Part shown: positions 50,827 to 56,267 of the stretch, piece by piece
How the letters are laid out: each line of letters starts with the position of its first letter
Numbering within the stretch: position 1 is the first letter of the stretch
Source of the DNA: Methanococcoides sp.
Lineage (GTDB): Archaea > Halobacteriota > Methanosarcinia > Methanosarcinales > Methanosarcinaceae
Direction: 5' to 3'
Length of the DNA stretch: 64,000 nucleotides
Assembly: GCA_021108275.1 (NCBI GenBank)
Contig: JAIORD010000027.1
Coordinates: 62,001-126,000, forward strand
Position numbers and translations under genes: made by a program
Notes under the pieces: generated by a model
Seen by the model: the letters and a program-made list of their open reading frames with translations, nothing else
The model's database searches: none
What the model was told of the DNA's origin: nothing

Positions 50827-50914
50827 GCGGGGGTTGCCCAGCCAGGTCAAAGGCGCTAGGTTGAGGGCCTAGTCTCGTAGGAGTTCGTGTGTTCGAATCA
50901 CACCTCCCGCACCA
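50827..50914 (+). tRNA. tRNA-Leu (anticodon GAG), copy 1
   Basis: The acceptor GCGGGGG pairs with CTCCCGC (one G-U). The anticodon stem CTAGG/CCTAG encloses loop TTGAGGG, giving GAG. A long variable arm fits leucine, and the T arm is GTGTG-TTCGAAT-CACAC. Discriminator A at 50911 is followed by CCA, which may be encoded or chance. It follows rpoD by 51 nt. Confidence 0.95.
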
Positions 50915-50992
50915 AACATACTACAAATGTGAAAAAAAGCGATTCTGAGTTATTTCTGGATTGATGCTCTATTTACATTAATTTATCACCGT

Positions 50993-51080
50993 GCGGGGGT
51001 TGCCCAGCCAGGTCAAAGGCGCTAGGTTGAGGGCCTAGTCTCGTAGGAGTTCGTGTGTTCGAATCACACCTCCCGCACCA
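50993..51080 (+). tRNA. tRNA-Leu (anticodon GAG), copy 2
   Basis: The sequence is identical to the copy at 50827, including the CCA after the discriminator base. An 81-nt A/T-rich spacer separates it from each neighbour. Confidence 0.95.
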
Positions 51081-51158
51081 AACATACTACAAATGTGAAA
51101 AAAAGCGATTCTGAGTTATTTCTGGATTGATGCTCTATTTACATTAATTTATCACCGT

Positions 51159-51246
51159 GCGGGGGTTGCCCAGCCAGGTCAAAGGCGCTAGGTTGAGGGC
51201 CTAGTCTCGTAGGAGTTCGTGTGTTCGAATCACACCTCCCGCACCA
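51159..51246 (+). tRNA. tRNA-Leu (anticodon GAG), copy 3
   Basis: The sequence is identical to copies 1 and 2, again followed by CCA from the repeated spacer. Confidence 0.95.
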
Positions 51247-51324
51247 AACATACTACAAATGTGAAAAAAAGCGATTCTGAGTTATTTCTGGATTGATGCT
51301 CTATTTACATTAATTTATCACCGT

Positions 51325-51409
51325 GCGGGGGTTGCCCAGCCAGGTCAAAGGCGCTAGGTTGAGGGCCTAGTCTCGTAGGAGTTCGTGTGTTCGAATCACA
51401 CCTCCCGCA
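51325..51409 (+). tRNA. tRNA-Leu (anticodon GAG), copy 4
   Basis: The tRNA body is identical to the other copies, but the sequence after discriminator A is CTATTTT, so no CCA is encoded. This copy probably represents the original 3' flank, with the CCA-bearing spacers arising in the duplication. Confidence 0.95.
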
Positions 51410-51620
51410 CTATTTTAAATTAAGTTATTGAACATCCATGCATTTTTTATTATCTTTTGTTTTCAGATAGGTTATCTTTTGATATTTTAATTCAATAATC
51501 GCAAATCAATACTACAATTCCAATATCACAATCTCAACACTGCAAATGTGTTCTAAATGTCACTTTTGCGGTACAAAATAAAAAAAGAAAAGGACCACAT
51601 GTTGCACCCCTCTATCGATA

Positions 51621-53561
51621 TTACTCGTCCTTCTCAGTATGTTCGGCTACACCAAGAACAACTATCTTTGTTTCGATGAGCGTATTTGATTTTTCCATGA
51701 ACAGCTCGTCCTTTTTCACTTCTATCTTTACCGAATCATTGTCCATGTTAGCATCTTTCATGTACTTGTGTATGGTCTCATCACCAAGCCTGAGGGCATG
51801 CTCTACAGCTTCTTCATATTCATCAAAGCTTTCTCTTCCCTTTTCAGAGTACACGTAGAATTCCCAGTCCGGGGCAGCCATTGAAACAGGTCTGATAAGC
51901 ATTTCGACCCTTCGTACTCCCTTTGCGGCCAGCGCGCCTGCCGCATTACCCACACTGGCAAATTCCGGTAGGATCATCTCTGCATCGATGAGTTTTCTCA
52001 TACCCTCAAGATAAGCTACCACAGGTCCTCCAATAAGCACCACCGGGATCTCTACCTTGAACTTTATGGGTGAGTTCGTATCAAATGTCTTGCGTACTTC
52101 TTCCTTTGAATTATCTTCAAGGAAAAATGATACAAGATCTGCTGCCATGTTCTTTGTAAACTCATTCTTAACATGTTCTGCAAATTCCTTCCCGTCCATC
52201 TTGCACATTGAACCGAGGTGCTGCGCACCTGCCTTGGAAGCCTCTACACTATATTCAGTATAGTCTCCAAGCACATGTAGTGCATCTGTGGGTGTAAAAT
52301 TGATGGGTTGTATCAAACGTTTCTGCATAAGCATATCAAGGTGTTTATTAGTAGGAAGCTTATTCAGGCGGTTGCGTATTTCCCTTATTGATGTGGGTGT
52401 CTTGGAAATGGCTTCCAGTAATTCAGCCTCATAATTGCTCAGGTCGATAGGTTCGTAATCTGTTCTGATGAAGAATTTCGTAGGCTGGAAGTTCATACCA
52501 ATAATGCCTCTTGAAGGCATTGGATTATTGGTGAGCTGCTCCAGGAACTCTGGGTATTTCACTGCGGCCCTGCACAACGGAATGACCCTTCTGGGCCCGA
52601 TGGTCATCTTTGCCGCTCCTACCCATATGTCACTGTCACCGCCAAGGGCAGATGTTTCCATCTTTATCGCTTTGACCCTTGTCTTCCAACCACCTACAAC
52701 GGCGCCTGCATCGCTCATCTGCGGTACGCCATCATATATAACCGAAACATCGGTACTCGTACCACCTACATCGATCACTGCACAACTATCTCTCTTTGAA
52801 AGGAATGCAGCACCAACAAGACTTCCTGCAGGTCCTGAAAAGATGGATTCTATCGGCTTTTCGAGAGCGTTTTTGATACCTATGACCGACCCGTCACATT
52901 TGAGCATGAATATTTTTGCATCCATGCCCCTACTCCTTATCTCGGATTCCACGCTGGTCATGAACTTTTCAGTTATGGGTATCAATTGTGCATTGAAGAA
53001 TGCCGTCACTGCTCTTTCAAATGCACCAAGGTCCTGTGAAAGCTCGTGGGCGCAGACAACGGGCATTCCTGTGCTTTTCCTGACGATCTCCTTGACCTTC
53101 AGTTCATGTTCATGGTTTCGAATGCTAAAATATGAAGAAACTGCAAAAGCTGCCACTTTATCCTTAACACGGAGGGCAAATTTTCTCACTGCATCTTCAT
53201 CAAGGGGGTTTGCCTGAGCACCCCTGTGGTCATGTCCTCCGCTTACCTGAACATAATGCTCTGTGGGAAGATTGGTGCTAATATGATAATCTCCGACAAG
53301 GATAAGCCCAACAGGAAATCCTGTGCCCTCCAGGATCGTATTGGTGGAAAGGGTCGTTGAGACTGAAACGATCTCAACTTGTCCAAGTATGGATTGATCA
53401 AGGGAGTTCAATACATTCCTTATCCCTTCCAAAGGGTCCGGGTATGTCGTTAAAGCCTTGCTTGAGGCAAGTATCTCATTCTTTGAGTTCTCTACGATGA
53501 CAGCATCTGTGTAGGTGCCGCCGGCATCTATTCCAAGGCTCAATTTCATGCTAGTCTCCAT
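51621..53561 (-). CDS. HyuA-like hydantoinase/oxoprolinase ASKHA ATPase
   Basis: The 646-residue protein has the two ASKHA phosphate-binding motifs, LGIDAGGTYTDAVIVE at residue 8 and VIDVGGTSTDVSVI near residue 265, and an adenosine-motif-like SVGNAAGALAAKG near 560. It matches the N-methylhydantoinase A / oxoprolinase family. No HyuB partner is nearby. It begins directly after the Orc/Cdc6-like gene, in the operon headed by the MtmB-like gene. Since RamA, which reactivates methylamine corrinoid proteins, is also an ASKHA protein, an ATP-driven helper role is possible. It lacks RamA's iron-sulfur domain. Confidence 0.8.
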   Translation of the reverse strand: METSMKLSLGIDAGGTYTDAVIVENSKNEILASSKALTTYPDPLEGIRNVLNSLDQSILGQVEIVSVSTTLSTNTILEGTGFPVGLILVGDYHISTNLPTEHYVQVSGGHDHRGAQANPLDEDAVRKFALRVKDKVAAFAVSSYFSIRNHEHELKVKEIVRKSTGMPVVCAHELSQDLGAFERAVTAFFNAQLIPITEKFMTSVESEIRSRGMDAKIFMLKCDGSVIGIKNALEKPIESIFSGPAGSLVGAAFLSKRDSCAVIDVGGTSTDVSVIYDGVPQMSDAGAVVGGWKTRVKAIKMETSALGGDSDIWVGAAKMTIGPRRVIPLCRAAVKYPEFLEQLTNNPMPSRGIIGMNFQPTKFFIRTDYEPIDLSNYEAELLEAISKTPTSIREIRNRLNKLPTNKHLDMLMQKRLIQPINFTPTDALHVLGDYTEYSVEASKAGAQHLGSMCKMDGKEFAEHVKNEFTKNMAADLVSFFLEDNSKEEVRKTFDTNSPIKFKVEIPVVLIGGPVVAYLEGMRKLIDAEMILPEFASVGNAAGALAAKGVRRVEMLIRPVSMAAPDWEFYVYSEKGRESFDEYEEAVEHALRLGDETIHKYMKDANMDNDSVKIEVKKDELFMEKSNTLIETKIVVLGVAEHTEKDE

Positions 53562-54752
53562 TTAATTAATTCTCAGCTGCTTTAACCTGTAGTCTGAATG
53601 AAGGGCTGTCTCTATTTTGTGTGGACTTTTCTTCAATGCTACAAGACGGGTTTTCCCGTATCTCCCCCTGCTTCGCACAGGTGCGGAAATGAAACCTTCC
53701 ATGTCGAATTCTGAAACGATTCTGGATACACTGGTGCGGCCAAGCGGGTCAGTGTTCGTCTCCTCGCAAAACTTCCTGTAAATAGCTTCAATTTGTCCTG
53801 TAGTGACCTTGTCGTTCAACTCATTTGTCAGTTTGACAATACTTAAAAGAACCAGCTTCGAATTGAATGGCAGTTTTTCCATCGATCTTATCAGTTCTGA
53901 ATCACCCATTTCTTCGTTTGCAAGACGAATATGGTTTTCGGTGATCTCTCCTGATCCGGATGTGTCTGCAATATTCCCAGCTTTTTCCAGTAATGCGACC
54001 ACTTTTGAAGCATTGCCTTCTTCACCTGCCAGTTCTACACATAATTTAATTATCTCACTGTTTAAAGCTCTTTCTGCAAATGCAGAAGTGTTCCTTTTCT
54101 CAAGAATTTGTGTGATCTGATCACTATCATATGGTCTAAACACGAGGTTTTTCTGTTGAAGTGCTGAAACGATGCTTTGTTCAAGTTGTCCGTGGAATGT
54201 AAGATCATCTGTAATGCCTATAATGCCTATGAAAATATCATCCTCTATGCTCATATTTTCTCCTGCATGGCTAAGGTCGTACAGTATCGTGTGGTTCTTG
54301 AGTAATTCTATCTCATCGAATACAACTATTATTGTATAATGTGTCTCGTTCAGAGCTTTCCAGAGTGCTCTGTAATATTTACCCATGGAAAGTCCTGTTC
54401 TTGGGACCTCTGCCTCAGGAGATACTTTGTTGAGTATTTCCTGTATGATCCTGCTGGTAGTATTGATCTTCTGACAATTGATGAATACAGGAACAACATT
54501 GAGATCATCCTTCCCAATGTTCTCTATAAGCTGTTTCAGGACATATCTCACGACAGTTGTCTTTCCAGTACCTTTATTTCCTGAAATAATTGCATTTGCA
54601 GGCTCGCCATGATGCAGCACAGGTCTGATTATCTCAACAAGTTCCTTTATCTCCTTGTCCCTTCCGACAAGTTCTTCTGGCATGTATCTGGATGATAATA
54701 CAGACCTGTCCCTGAATATTTTGCTTGCACCCGTCCCGAATATATTAGTCAT
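53562..54752 (-). CDS. Orc1/Cdc6-like AAA+ ATPase with winged helix
   Basis: The 396-residue protein has Walker A GNKGTGKTTVVRY near residue 58, Walker B VVFDEIELL near 145, a sensor segment IIGITDDL near 180, and a C-terminal winged-helix domain (residues about 300-390, RTSVSRIVSEFDMEGFIS). This is the archaeal Orc1/Cdc6 layout. It lies 15 nt after the MtmB-like gene and abuts the HyuA-like gene, so it is not in a replication cluster. It may be an initiator paralogue used as a DNA-binding regulator; a true initiator role cannot be excluded. Confidence 0.85.
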   Translation of the reverse strand: MTNIFGTGASKIFRDRSVLSSRYMPEELVGRDKEIKELVEIIRPVLHHGEPANAIISGNKGTGKTTVVRYVLKQLIENIGKDDLNVVPVFINCQKINTTSRIIQEILNKVSPEAEVPRTGLSMGKYYRALWKALNETHYTIIVVFDEIELLKNHTILYDLSHAGENMSIEDDIFIGIIGITDDLTFHGQLEQSIVSALQQKNLVFRPYDSDQITQILEKRNTSAFAERALNSEIIKLCVELAGEEGNASKVVALLEKAGNIADTSGSGEITENHIRLANEEMGDSELIRSMEKLPFNSKLVLLSIVKLTNELNDKVTTGQIEAIYRKFCEETNTDPLGRTSVSRIVSEFDMEGFISAPVRSRGRYGKTRLVALKKSPHKIETALHSDYRLKQLRIN

Positions 54753-54767
54753 GTTCTTTCCACAGCC

Positions 54768-56138
54768 TCATTCAATGTTACAGTAGTTCTCTATCTCCGT
54801 GAAAATATCTCTGTAAAGCTTCAGGTATTCCTCTGTTGGTTTCATTTCATATTCTGATCTAACTTTATAACATTCATTGAATGGCTTTCCTTCAGGCGGA
54901 TACTGTAAAAGGTTTTCGTATTTTGCGTATATTTTGCTTACAGCTTCGTTTGCTTCTTCGAGTGTAAGTCCTGTTGCCAGGTGGGCGATCTCTCCCATAA
55001 ATCTTGATTCAAGGCCTGTTGAGTGGTCTGCACCTGCTCCTCTTGCACCCACAGGTCCAACCAACATATCTCTTCCTGACACGGTATCTCCAATGGCTTG
55101 TGCGGCAGTTTCATAGAACATCATATCTGTACAGCATCCAGCACGGTTCCAGTAATATCTTCCTGTGTAGTGGTGCATATTCCTTGAAATTGCCATGGAG
55201 GAAAGGTTGGATGCCCACATGATCTCTTCTGTGGAGGATGAATGAGTATTTACATGGACAGCACCCGACAGGTGAATACTTGCTCCTGTCACTATCTTTG
55301 ACTGGATGGTCTCTGCAACATCAACTATTGCTAAACCTTCGGGTGTGCCGATACCTGTGCCGCCGAATACAGGACATTGGCCACTAAGGAAATGATTGCC
55401 GTGTTCAAGATGGAATATGGATTTGTAAAATGTCTCATAGTCGGTCTTAAGTTCGTCAAGCTGGTAAACTTCCTGTACATCCGCAGTGGAATACAGTTCC
55501 TCGGATGATACTAGCATATATGCCGGTGAAATGGTGGGTGTGCCGGGACCCATCAATGCCAGTCCTTCACGACCTGCAAGTTTTGTTGCAAGTCTTTCTT
55601 GTCTTGCTTCCTTCAAAGCTGCAAGCATCTCAAAAGGAGTCTTCCCTCGTATTCCCTTCCCTCCCATTTTTTCCAGAGCTCCTGCATAAACACCTTGTAT
55701 AATAGGTTCCATTGCAGAACTTAAATGGACTTCAAGGAAATTTTCTTCTGATACAGTACCACCCATTGGCCCGCCAATAATGACAGGAGGTTCAGAGTCC
55801 ATTGTATACCTAAAAGGCACAATGACCTTTTCCTTAAATCTTCCTATTTCCAGTACTTTAGAACTATTGACTGATCTCCTGATATCCTCTTCATCGATCT
55901 TGATGCTTTTCTTTGTATCAATACAGTATATTCCAACTGATGTCAGGAGTTCAACAGCAGCTTCAAAAACTGAATCTGCCAGACTCATGTTTGTTGGGAC
56001 AAAACTACCGCTTTCACGAATGATGCCATATTTTTCTGCAAGTTCCTGTGATCTCATGAAAACTTCCATGTCATGCTTTTCTTCAGCTTTTTCATCACCA
56101 GTCGTTGCAGATTTCAGATGTTTGTAGATCTCGATCAT
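54768..56138 (-). CDS. MtmB-family methyltransferase homologue lacking pyrrolysine
   Basis: The 456-residue protein aligns along its length with monomethylamine methyltransferase MtmB: SFVPTNMSLADSVFEA, GGPMGGTVSEE, GRDMLVGPVGARGAG and KPFNECYKV match MtmB positions. In MtmB an in-frame UAG encodes pyrrolysine in a GVxGPET context; here the matching segment GLALMGPGT has Met196 (ATG at 55551-55553), and no in-frame TAG exists. The MtmB segment NQYY near residue 333 reads GRYY here, so the Gln is also changed. It probably acts on another methyl donor or has a different role. No corrinoid protein gene is adjacent. Confidence 0.85.
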   Translation of the reverse strand: MIEIYKHLKSATTGDEKAEEKHDMEVFMRSQELAEKYGIIRESGSFVPTNMSLADSVFEAAVELLTSVGIYCIDTKKSIKIDEEDIRRSVNSSKVLEIGRFKEKVIVPFRYTMDSEPPVIIGGPMGGTVSEENFLEVHLSSAMEPIIQGVYAGALEKMGGKGIRGKTPFEMLAALKEARQERLATKLAGREGLALMGPGTPTISPAYMLVSSEELYSTADVQEVYQLDELKTDYETFYKSIFHLEHGNHFLSGQCPVFGGTGIGTPEGLAIVDVAETIQSKIVTGASIHLSGAVHVNTHSSSTEEIMWASNLSSMAISRNMHHYTGRYYWNRAGCCTDMMFYETAAQAIGDTVSGRDMLVGPVGARGAGADHSTGLESRFMGEIAHLATGLTLEEANEAVSKIYAKYENLLQYPPEGKPFNECYKVRSEYEMKPTEEYLKLYRDIFTEIENYCNIE

Positions 56139-56179
56139 TTCAATTGCTCCTTTTTTGTTTTATGAGGGCTGTCAAATTT

Positions 56180-56267
56180 CCATGTAAATGTTACTTATAC
56201 CTATATTGACATGGAACGTTATTTATAGTTTTCCATGTGTGTCAAAAAGAACCTATGTTGACATGGA
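56180..56267 (-). promoter_or_regulatory. Promoter of the MtmB-like operon with four CCATGT/ACATGG half-sites
   Basis: Half-sites lie at 56180-56185 (CCATGT), 56209-56214 (ACATGG), 56233-56238 (CCATGT) and 56261-56266 (ACATGG). ACCTATRTTGACATGGA occurs at 56199 and 56251. On the minus strand CTATAAATAA (about 56219-56228) is a good TATA box, lying between TTGACATGGAA and TTCCATGT. The arrangement suggests cooperative binding of a dimeric regulator over the promoter, with a leader of about 60 nt to the ATG. Confidence 0.65.

Follow-up and report, generated by a model that had tools for sequence, protein, structure and literature searches.

An Orc1/Cdc6 paralogue related to plasmid initiators as a probable autoregulator of a pyrrolysine-free methyltransferase operon in Methanococcoides

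A three-gene operon conserved in Methanococcoides

We analyzed a stretch of 64,000 nucleotides from Methanococcoides sp. (GenBank assembly GCA_021108275.1, contig JAIORD010000027.1, positions 62,001 to 126,000 of the forward strand; hereafter the window), in which three tightly packed open reading frames (ORFs) on the minus strand encode a homologue of the methyltransferase MtmB (MtmB-A), an Orc1/Cdc6-like protein (Orc*) and a HyuA-like ASKHA protein. The window genome is close to M. seepicolus (98% in MtmB-A). This three-gene composition had been proposed from the bare sequence in an original prediction, and both the ORFs and their Pfam domains bear it out. The features of the locus, in window coordinates, are as follows.

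54768..56138, minus strand: MtmB-A, 456 aa, PF05369; MtmB homologue free of pyrrolysine (Pyl), probable substrate:corrinoid methyltransferase
53562..54752, minus strand: Orc*, 396 aa, TIGR02928; Orc1/Cdc6-type AAA+ and winged-helix protein, proposed autoregulator
51621..53561, minus strand: HyuA-like ASKHA protein, 646 aa, likely start at 53549, PF05378 and PF01968; proposed accessory ATPase
56232..56265, minus strand: candidate operator element 1, CATGTCAACATAGGTTCTTTTTGACACACATGGA, just upstream of the TATA box
56222..56228, minus strand: TATA-box-like CTATAAA between the operator elements, recognized by sequence and aligned in 12 promoters
56179..56213, minus strand: candidate operator element 2, CATGTCAATATAGGTATAAGTAACATTTACATGGA, just downstream of the TATA box
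51577..51595, minus strand: T-rich stretch TTTTCTTTTTTTATTTT, 3' of hyuA, by its sequence a possible archaeal-type operon terminator

The gap between mtmB and orc is 15 nt, as originally predicted, and the predicted gap of 0 nt between orc and hyuA applies only when hyuA is read from its first ATG. A gap of 12 nt, counted from the next ATG, is likelier, because that codon is preceded by GGAG and opens the conserved motif MxxSLGIDAGG (here MKLSLG). Among intact orthologous operons, the two gaps range over 15-16 nt and -4 to 41 nt, respectively. Pairwise ratios of nonsynonymous to synonymous substitution rates (dN/dS) are 0.03-0.17 for mtmB, 0.07-0.20 for orc and 0.06-0.09 for hyuA; purifying selection acts on all three genes.

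A search for the same neighborhood in other genomes, as the original prediction had advised, recovered the mtmB-orc-hyuA order in nine other Methanococcoides genomes and in a second three-gene copy within the window genome itself (C7:144908-149408), so the gene order is not unique to this genome. The full order is present in G001, G003, G004 (M. vulcani SLH33), G005, G007, G008, G009 and G010, while Methanococcoides sp. EBM-47 (G035), counted among the nine, keeps mtmB and orc and has an acyl-CoA-synthetase-like gene at the place of hyuA. The operon was not found in two genomes of the same genus. In the second copy of the window genome, orc* (L060 8289-9448, G000:C7) is broken by a short internal deletion or frameshift and both operator elements are intact, so the Orc* encoded in the window might control both copies.

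Relationships and motifs of Orc*

Orc* is a bona fide member of the Orc1/Cdc6 family, with a TIGR02928 score of 348.7 bits (cut-off 181.3) and a Cdc6_C match (PF09079, 2e-23) accompanied by Cdc6_lid (PF22703) and AAA domains. It keeps the Walker A and Walker B motifs and the winged helix. The box VII arginine (DPRV) and the sensor-2 arginine (GDAR) are lost in 11 of 11 Orc* proteins from Methanococcoides and the genome bin SMBSF72, and both are kept in the Orc* of Methanolobus bombayensis as well as in the plasmid initiators and chromosomal Orc1 proteins compared.

Linkage between Orc* and MtmB-A was found in three genera and in three arrangements. The first is the mtmB-orc-hyuA operon of Methanococcoides. 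In the second, from bin SMBSF72, one contig carries mtmB followed by a corrinoid-protein gene and another carries the 3' end of a corrinoid-protein gene, then orc, then hyuA; the two contigs overlap by exactly 123 nt, which resembles an assembler k-mer edge, and the join between them is likely correct. In the third, from M. bombayensis, orc is divergent from a corrinoid-mtmB-A gene pair. The 12 methyltransferase-linked Orcs form one clade (support 99/98), within which the SMBSF72 protein shows 47-48% identity. Plasmid initiators of Methanohalobium and Methanomethylovorans branch next to this clade (86/83 and 93/91) and chromosomal Orc1 proteins stand apart; the nearest relatives outside the clade are the plasmid initiators of Methanohalobium evestigatum (41.5% identity) and Methanomethylovorans hollandica (33%). 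The probable ancestor of Orc* is an Orc1/Cdc6 initiator of plasmid type.

Other origins were considered and rejected. The chromosomal Orc1 is encoded by another gene, shares 31% identity with Orc* and has its own origin recognition boxes (ORBs), so Orc* is not that protein. A scan of viral contigs gave no relative of Orc*. Nor does Orc* accompany MtmB-A in every genome that has the latter: the mtmB-A genes of Methanohalobium, Methanosalsum, Methanohalophilus, Methanomethylovorans and most Methanolobus have neither an Orc* nearby nor the promoter element described below.

A paired element in the mtmB-A promoter

The most telling evidence comes from the promoter of mtmB-A, which contains two copies of a 37-bp element, TCCATGTCAAnnnAGGT-N14-CATGGA, on either side of the TATA box. 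The copies lie 52-53 nt apart in Methanococcoides, or about five turns of B-DNA, and 49 nt apart in SMBSF72, where a matching GTGAA variant (TCCATGTGAATAnAGGT) occurs twice around the TATA box together with a diverged Orc*. All Methanococcoides operon copies have the paired element, with one of the two lost in G007.

As the search pattern was derived from these same operon promoters, the information it yields lies in its rarity elsewhere. In the 2.67-Mb window genome, the pattern has four matches, all before the two operon copies, and a reversed control has none. Across 61 genomes it has 26 matches, 20 of them in operon promoters, one in a deletion scar in G003 and five scattered, against a single match for the control. 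The G003 match (G003:C1:29144-29242) overlaps a 30-codon remnant of orc*, in what is apparently the scar left by deletion of a former operon copy.

In its 5' half the element is similar to chromosomal ORBs, for example TCCACTGGAAATAAAGGGGT and TTCCAGTCGAAACCATAGGG (p of about 0.003 versus shuffles, for the window sites), a likeness that is no more than suggestive. On the M. evestigatum plasmid, iteron-like repeats of 49-50 nt (TTTACGTGCAGAGAGGGGT...) lie directly after orc (L084 1381-1602) and are probable origin boxes. These iterons do not match the operator.

A probable methyltransferase without pyrrolysine

MtmB-A has a full-length MtmB domain, matching PF05369 with E=1e-161 and 539 bits over profile positions 1-448 of 450, and it matches PDB 1l2q with E=8e-78 over residues 8-449. 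The original description of the gene as a pyrrolysine-free MtmB paralogue proved right, as methionine stands at the position of Pyl202 and there is no in-frame TAG. In the active site E229 is kept and three further positions are changed, E259 to Gly, Q333 to Tyr and Y335 to Trp. These three are the residues which hold the pyrrolysine adduct in MtmB, and together with Met202 they exclude MtmB-A as the monomethylamine methyltransferase proper. The same changes would make the pocket more aromatic, as expected for binding of a quaternary cation. MtmB-A most likely moves a methyl group from a methylated compound to a corrinoid protein without the aid of pyrrolysine, and we favor a quaternary ammonium or sulfonium compound as the substrate.

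Relatives of MtmB-A with Met, Phe or Val at the pyrrolysine position occur in Methanohalobium, Methanosalsum, Methanohalophilus, Methanolobus and Methanomethylovorans. Most Methanolobus mtmB-A genes adjoin an MtbA-type gene and a pyrrolysine mtmB, and some relatives in other genera adjoin a BCCT transporter gene. A corrinoid-protein gene adjoins mtmB-A in SMBSF72 and M. bombayensis; none lies beside the window mtmB-A, and unlinked corrinoid genes are found elsewhere in the same genome.

A further Pyl-free MtmB clade with changed pocket residues (L052 7367-8734, L055 6582-7949, L058 7994-9355 and L059 2696-4054) is distinct from both MtmB-A and the MtqB-like proteins discussed below. Its L059 member lies near a BCCT transporter gene and mtbB and corrinoid genes.

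Proposed regulation of the operon by Orc*

We consider it probable, on the strength of sequence comparison, that Orc* is a paralogue of plasmid-type initiators recruited as the dedicated autoregulator of a Pyl-free methyltransferase operon, with the HyuA-like protein as a probable accessory. The original prediction had raised the idea that the Orc-like protein could be a regulator, and the conserved neighborhood, along with a paired operator that tracks the orc gene, lends support to it. A literature search for Orc1/Cdc6 proteins linked to methanogen methyltransferases found nothing. What the sequences show directly is the genes, their conservation, the element and where it is confined, the motif losses and the clades; binding to DNA, repression, the substrate and the role of HyuA are our proposals.

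In the mechanism we propose, Orc* would most likely bind the two asymmetric ORB-like elements bracketing the TATA box through its AAA+ and winged-helix domains. Its presence on both would hide the binding site of TFB/TBP along with the region of the start, blocking transcription until a signal (the substrate, a nucleotide state or a partner protein) releases it. With the arginine finger and sensor 2 gone, the ATP switch of Orc* would presumably work differently. Once expressed, MtmB-A would pass the methyl group to a corrinoid protein encoded elsewhere in the window genome, and the HyuA-like ATPase would probably serve the methyltransferase/corrinoid system, for example in maturation, reactivation or substrate handling, which is the least certain step. 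More tentatively, and with somewhat less than even confidence, we suggest that a plasmid Orc1/Cdc6 initiator and its origin-box signal were converted together into a single-operon switch, the ORB-like boxes becoming operators on either side of the TATA box before the arginine finger and the sensor-2 arginine were lost.

Several observations weigh against this reading. The element is absent from the 152-nt intergenic region between orc and the methyltransferase genes in M. bombayensis, whose Orc* is also the one with both arginines. The ORB likeness is modest and needs a gap of 1-2 nt, and about 0.5% of random window 22-mers score equally. The corrinoid gene across which the SMBSF72 contigs are joined may exist in more than one copy. 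In EBM-47 orc is not followed by hyuA, and therefore HyuA is not obligatory. Finally, the presence of MtmB-A does not track the use of choline, betaine or N,N-dimethylethanolamine (DMEA) among the handful of strains whose identity could be established, and assignment of a substrate by simple phenotype match was abandoned. Of the three compounds, DMEA is the only one used by M. methylutens DSM 2657 and by M. burtonii (PMC4239356), and M. vulcani SLH33 uses all of them; MtmB-A occurs in SLH33 and apparently in DSM 2657, and a genome resembling M. burtonii does not have it.

The HyuA-like protein

The HyuA-like protein contains Hydant_A_N (PF05378, 1e-34) and Hydantoinase_A (PF01968, 4e-30) domains. 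Its ASKHA motifs are intact, with phosphate-1 and phosphate-2 invariant in 17 paralogues, and an AlphaFold2 model was obtained with a predicted local distance difference test (pLDDT) score of 82.4. The best Foldseek matches of this model are acetophenone carboxylase (Apc), acetone carboxylase, N-methylhydantoinase (NMHase) and caprolactamase subunits, which brings up the reading that the protein itself catalyzes a step of the pathway, using ATP to activate or hydrolyze an amide or lactam that serves as substrate or arises as product. We regard this as rather unlikely. No HyuB partner adjoins hyuA, and the single Hydantoinase_B gene of the genome (C1:148821) lies beside a different, 719-aa HyuA; the protein was accordingly also rejected as one half of a HyuAB hydrolase. 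Moreover, paralogues of about 640 aa occur in methanol, methylamine and pyl clusters, whose substrates differ, which argues for a substrate-independent role.

Methanosarcinaceae genomes each have several HyuA-like paralogues. In 9 of the 11 genomes tested, where chance would give 0.4, a paralogue of the same family is encoded no more than 5 kb from mtaB, and others adjoin pylSBCD-like or mtmB-mtbA clusters. These neighborhoods support a general accessory role for HyuA-like proteins in methyltransferase systems. The original suggestion that the HyuA-like protein could be a helper, made with reference to RamA, gains indirect support only, from the proximity of paralogues to mtaB. The protein is not RamA: it has no PF14574, PF17651 or Fer4 domains, RACo ranks only 20 among its fold matches, and the genome has a separate RamA.

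Two side observations concern these neighborhoods. In a Methanomethylovorans hollandica-like genome (L115 2495-11074), two HyuA paralogues lie directly upstream of pylS-pylB-pylC-pylD-like genes on the same strand. DUF1638 genes (PF07796) recur beside MtmB-A operons and HyuA paralogues (L071 10070-10867, L125 5117-5902, L091 14481-15302 and L115 11064-11933); mutant fitness links a Phaeobacter DUF1638 protein to reactivation of B12-dependent methionine synthase (PMC5764234).

Other readings of Orc* and its element

The paired element could be a genuine operator read by another regulator, for example one of Msr/FilR type, with Orc* acting elsewhere. Msr proteins (PMC11619418) and FilR1-type regulators (PF08350) do commonly flank methyltransferase genes of this family; no gene for a FilR/Msr-type regulator, however, lies next to the window operon. 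The element instead tracks Orc*, down to the pairing of a diverged Orc* with a diverged element in SMBSF72; mtmB-A genes without an Orc* do not have the element upstream, and its 5' half is ORB-like. We judge this alternative unlikely.

Less likely again is that Orc* is still a replication initiator, or the remnant of an integrated plasmid, which stands in the operon by chance with the repeats as its origin. Its kinship to plasmid initiators and the resemblance of the elements to ORBs speak for this reading, yet there are only two elements, and these flank the TATA box at fixed phase. Plasmid genes are absent around the operon, which sits in a chromosomal synteny, rpoD-tRNA-Leu-operon-uppS, shared by several species. 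The loss of the box VII and sensor-2 arginines throughout the Methanococcoides group, the recurrence of the linkage to MtmB-A in three arrangements, and the presence of two other Orcs in the window genome also count against an initiator. Autoregulation by Orc* is the reading we prefer.

Between rpoD and the operon, window positions 50827-51410 hold four tandem tRNA-Leu(GAG) genes in near-identical repeat units of 166 nt. Their copy number differs between species, with relatives having two or three at the same site.

If the proposed role is correct, archaeal origin-recognition proteins would have given rise to a transcription factor for a second time, independently, with Orc* as a local catabolic regulator that has a compact operator. 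The transition from initiator to regulator could then be followed through three genera, one member having the initiator arginines and others not. Such a system would also add a regulated Pyl-free methyltransferase to the marine methylotrophic methanogens, and would point to HyuA-like ASKHA proteins as overlooked companions of corrinoid methyltransferases.

Comparison with known systems

The closest described counterpart of MtmB-A is MtqB, a non-Pyl MtmB of M. methylutens Q3c shown in March 2026 to remove methyl groups from tetramethylammonium and choline. The same study mentions several further non-Pyl mtmB genes and found MtqB to be the only such protein made under its conditions (PMC13044021). 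MtmB-A and MtqB are both Pyl-free PF05369 homologues from the same genus. MtqB pairs with the corrinoid protein MtqC, and MtmB-A would likewise act with a corrinoid protein, a candidate gene for which adjoins mtmB-A in two other genera. Unlike the window mtmB-A, MtqB has an adjacent corrinoid gene, and no orc/hyuA operon is reported for it (PMC13044021). We identified as probable MtqB loci L053 and L054, in which a corrinoid gene is followed by an mtmB-like gene; these two are 77% identical to each other, in accord with the figure of 78-87% in PMC13044021. That MtmB-A is merely another tetramethylammonium/choline methyltransferase, and the operon the known MtqB system, is very improbable, since these loci, which are inferred and are not the Q3c MtqB sequence itself, share no more than about 29% identity with MtmB-A, fall on a separate branch and have a different active site (E259 to Cys, Q260 to Met).

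Relative to the Pyl-containing MtmB (PDB 1L2Q and 1TV2), MtmB-A belongs to the same family, has the same length and shares Glu229; it differs at positions 202, 259, 333 and 335, as given above, and is 33-36% identical to the Pyl MtmBs of these genomes. The HyuA-like protein is, like the corrinoid activases RamA and RACo, an ASKHA ATPase linked to corrinoid methyltransferases; unlike them, it is without the RACo domains and the 4Fe-4S domain.

For Orc*, the M. evestigatum plasmid initiator (NC_014254) is the closest relative outside the operons and has the same domains, and differs from the Methanococcoides proteins in keeping DPRV and GDAR. In function, the nearest precedent is Orc1-2 of Saccharolobus islandicus, which regulates transcription without being an initiator, acts on its own promoter among others, and has its DNA binding switched on by ATP binding and off by hydrolysis (PMC9738581). 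Both are Orc1/Cdc6 paralogues with Walker motifs and a winged helix, and regulation, proven for Orc1-2, is what we infer for Orc*. Orc1-2 is a global DNA-damage regulator that reads the hexamer ANTTTC, whereas Orc*, from a clade related to plasmid initiators, seems dedicated to a single catabolic operon, on which it would act by way of the paired 37-bp elements.

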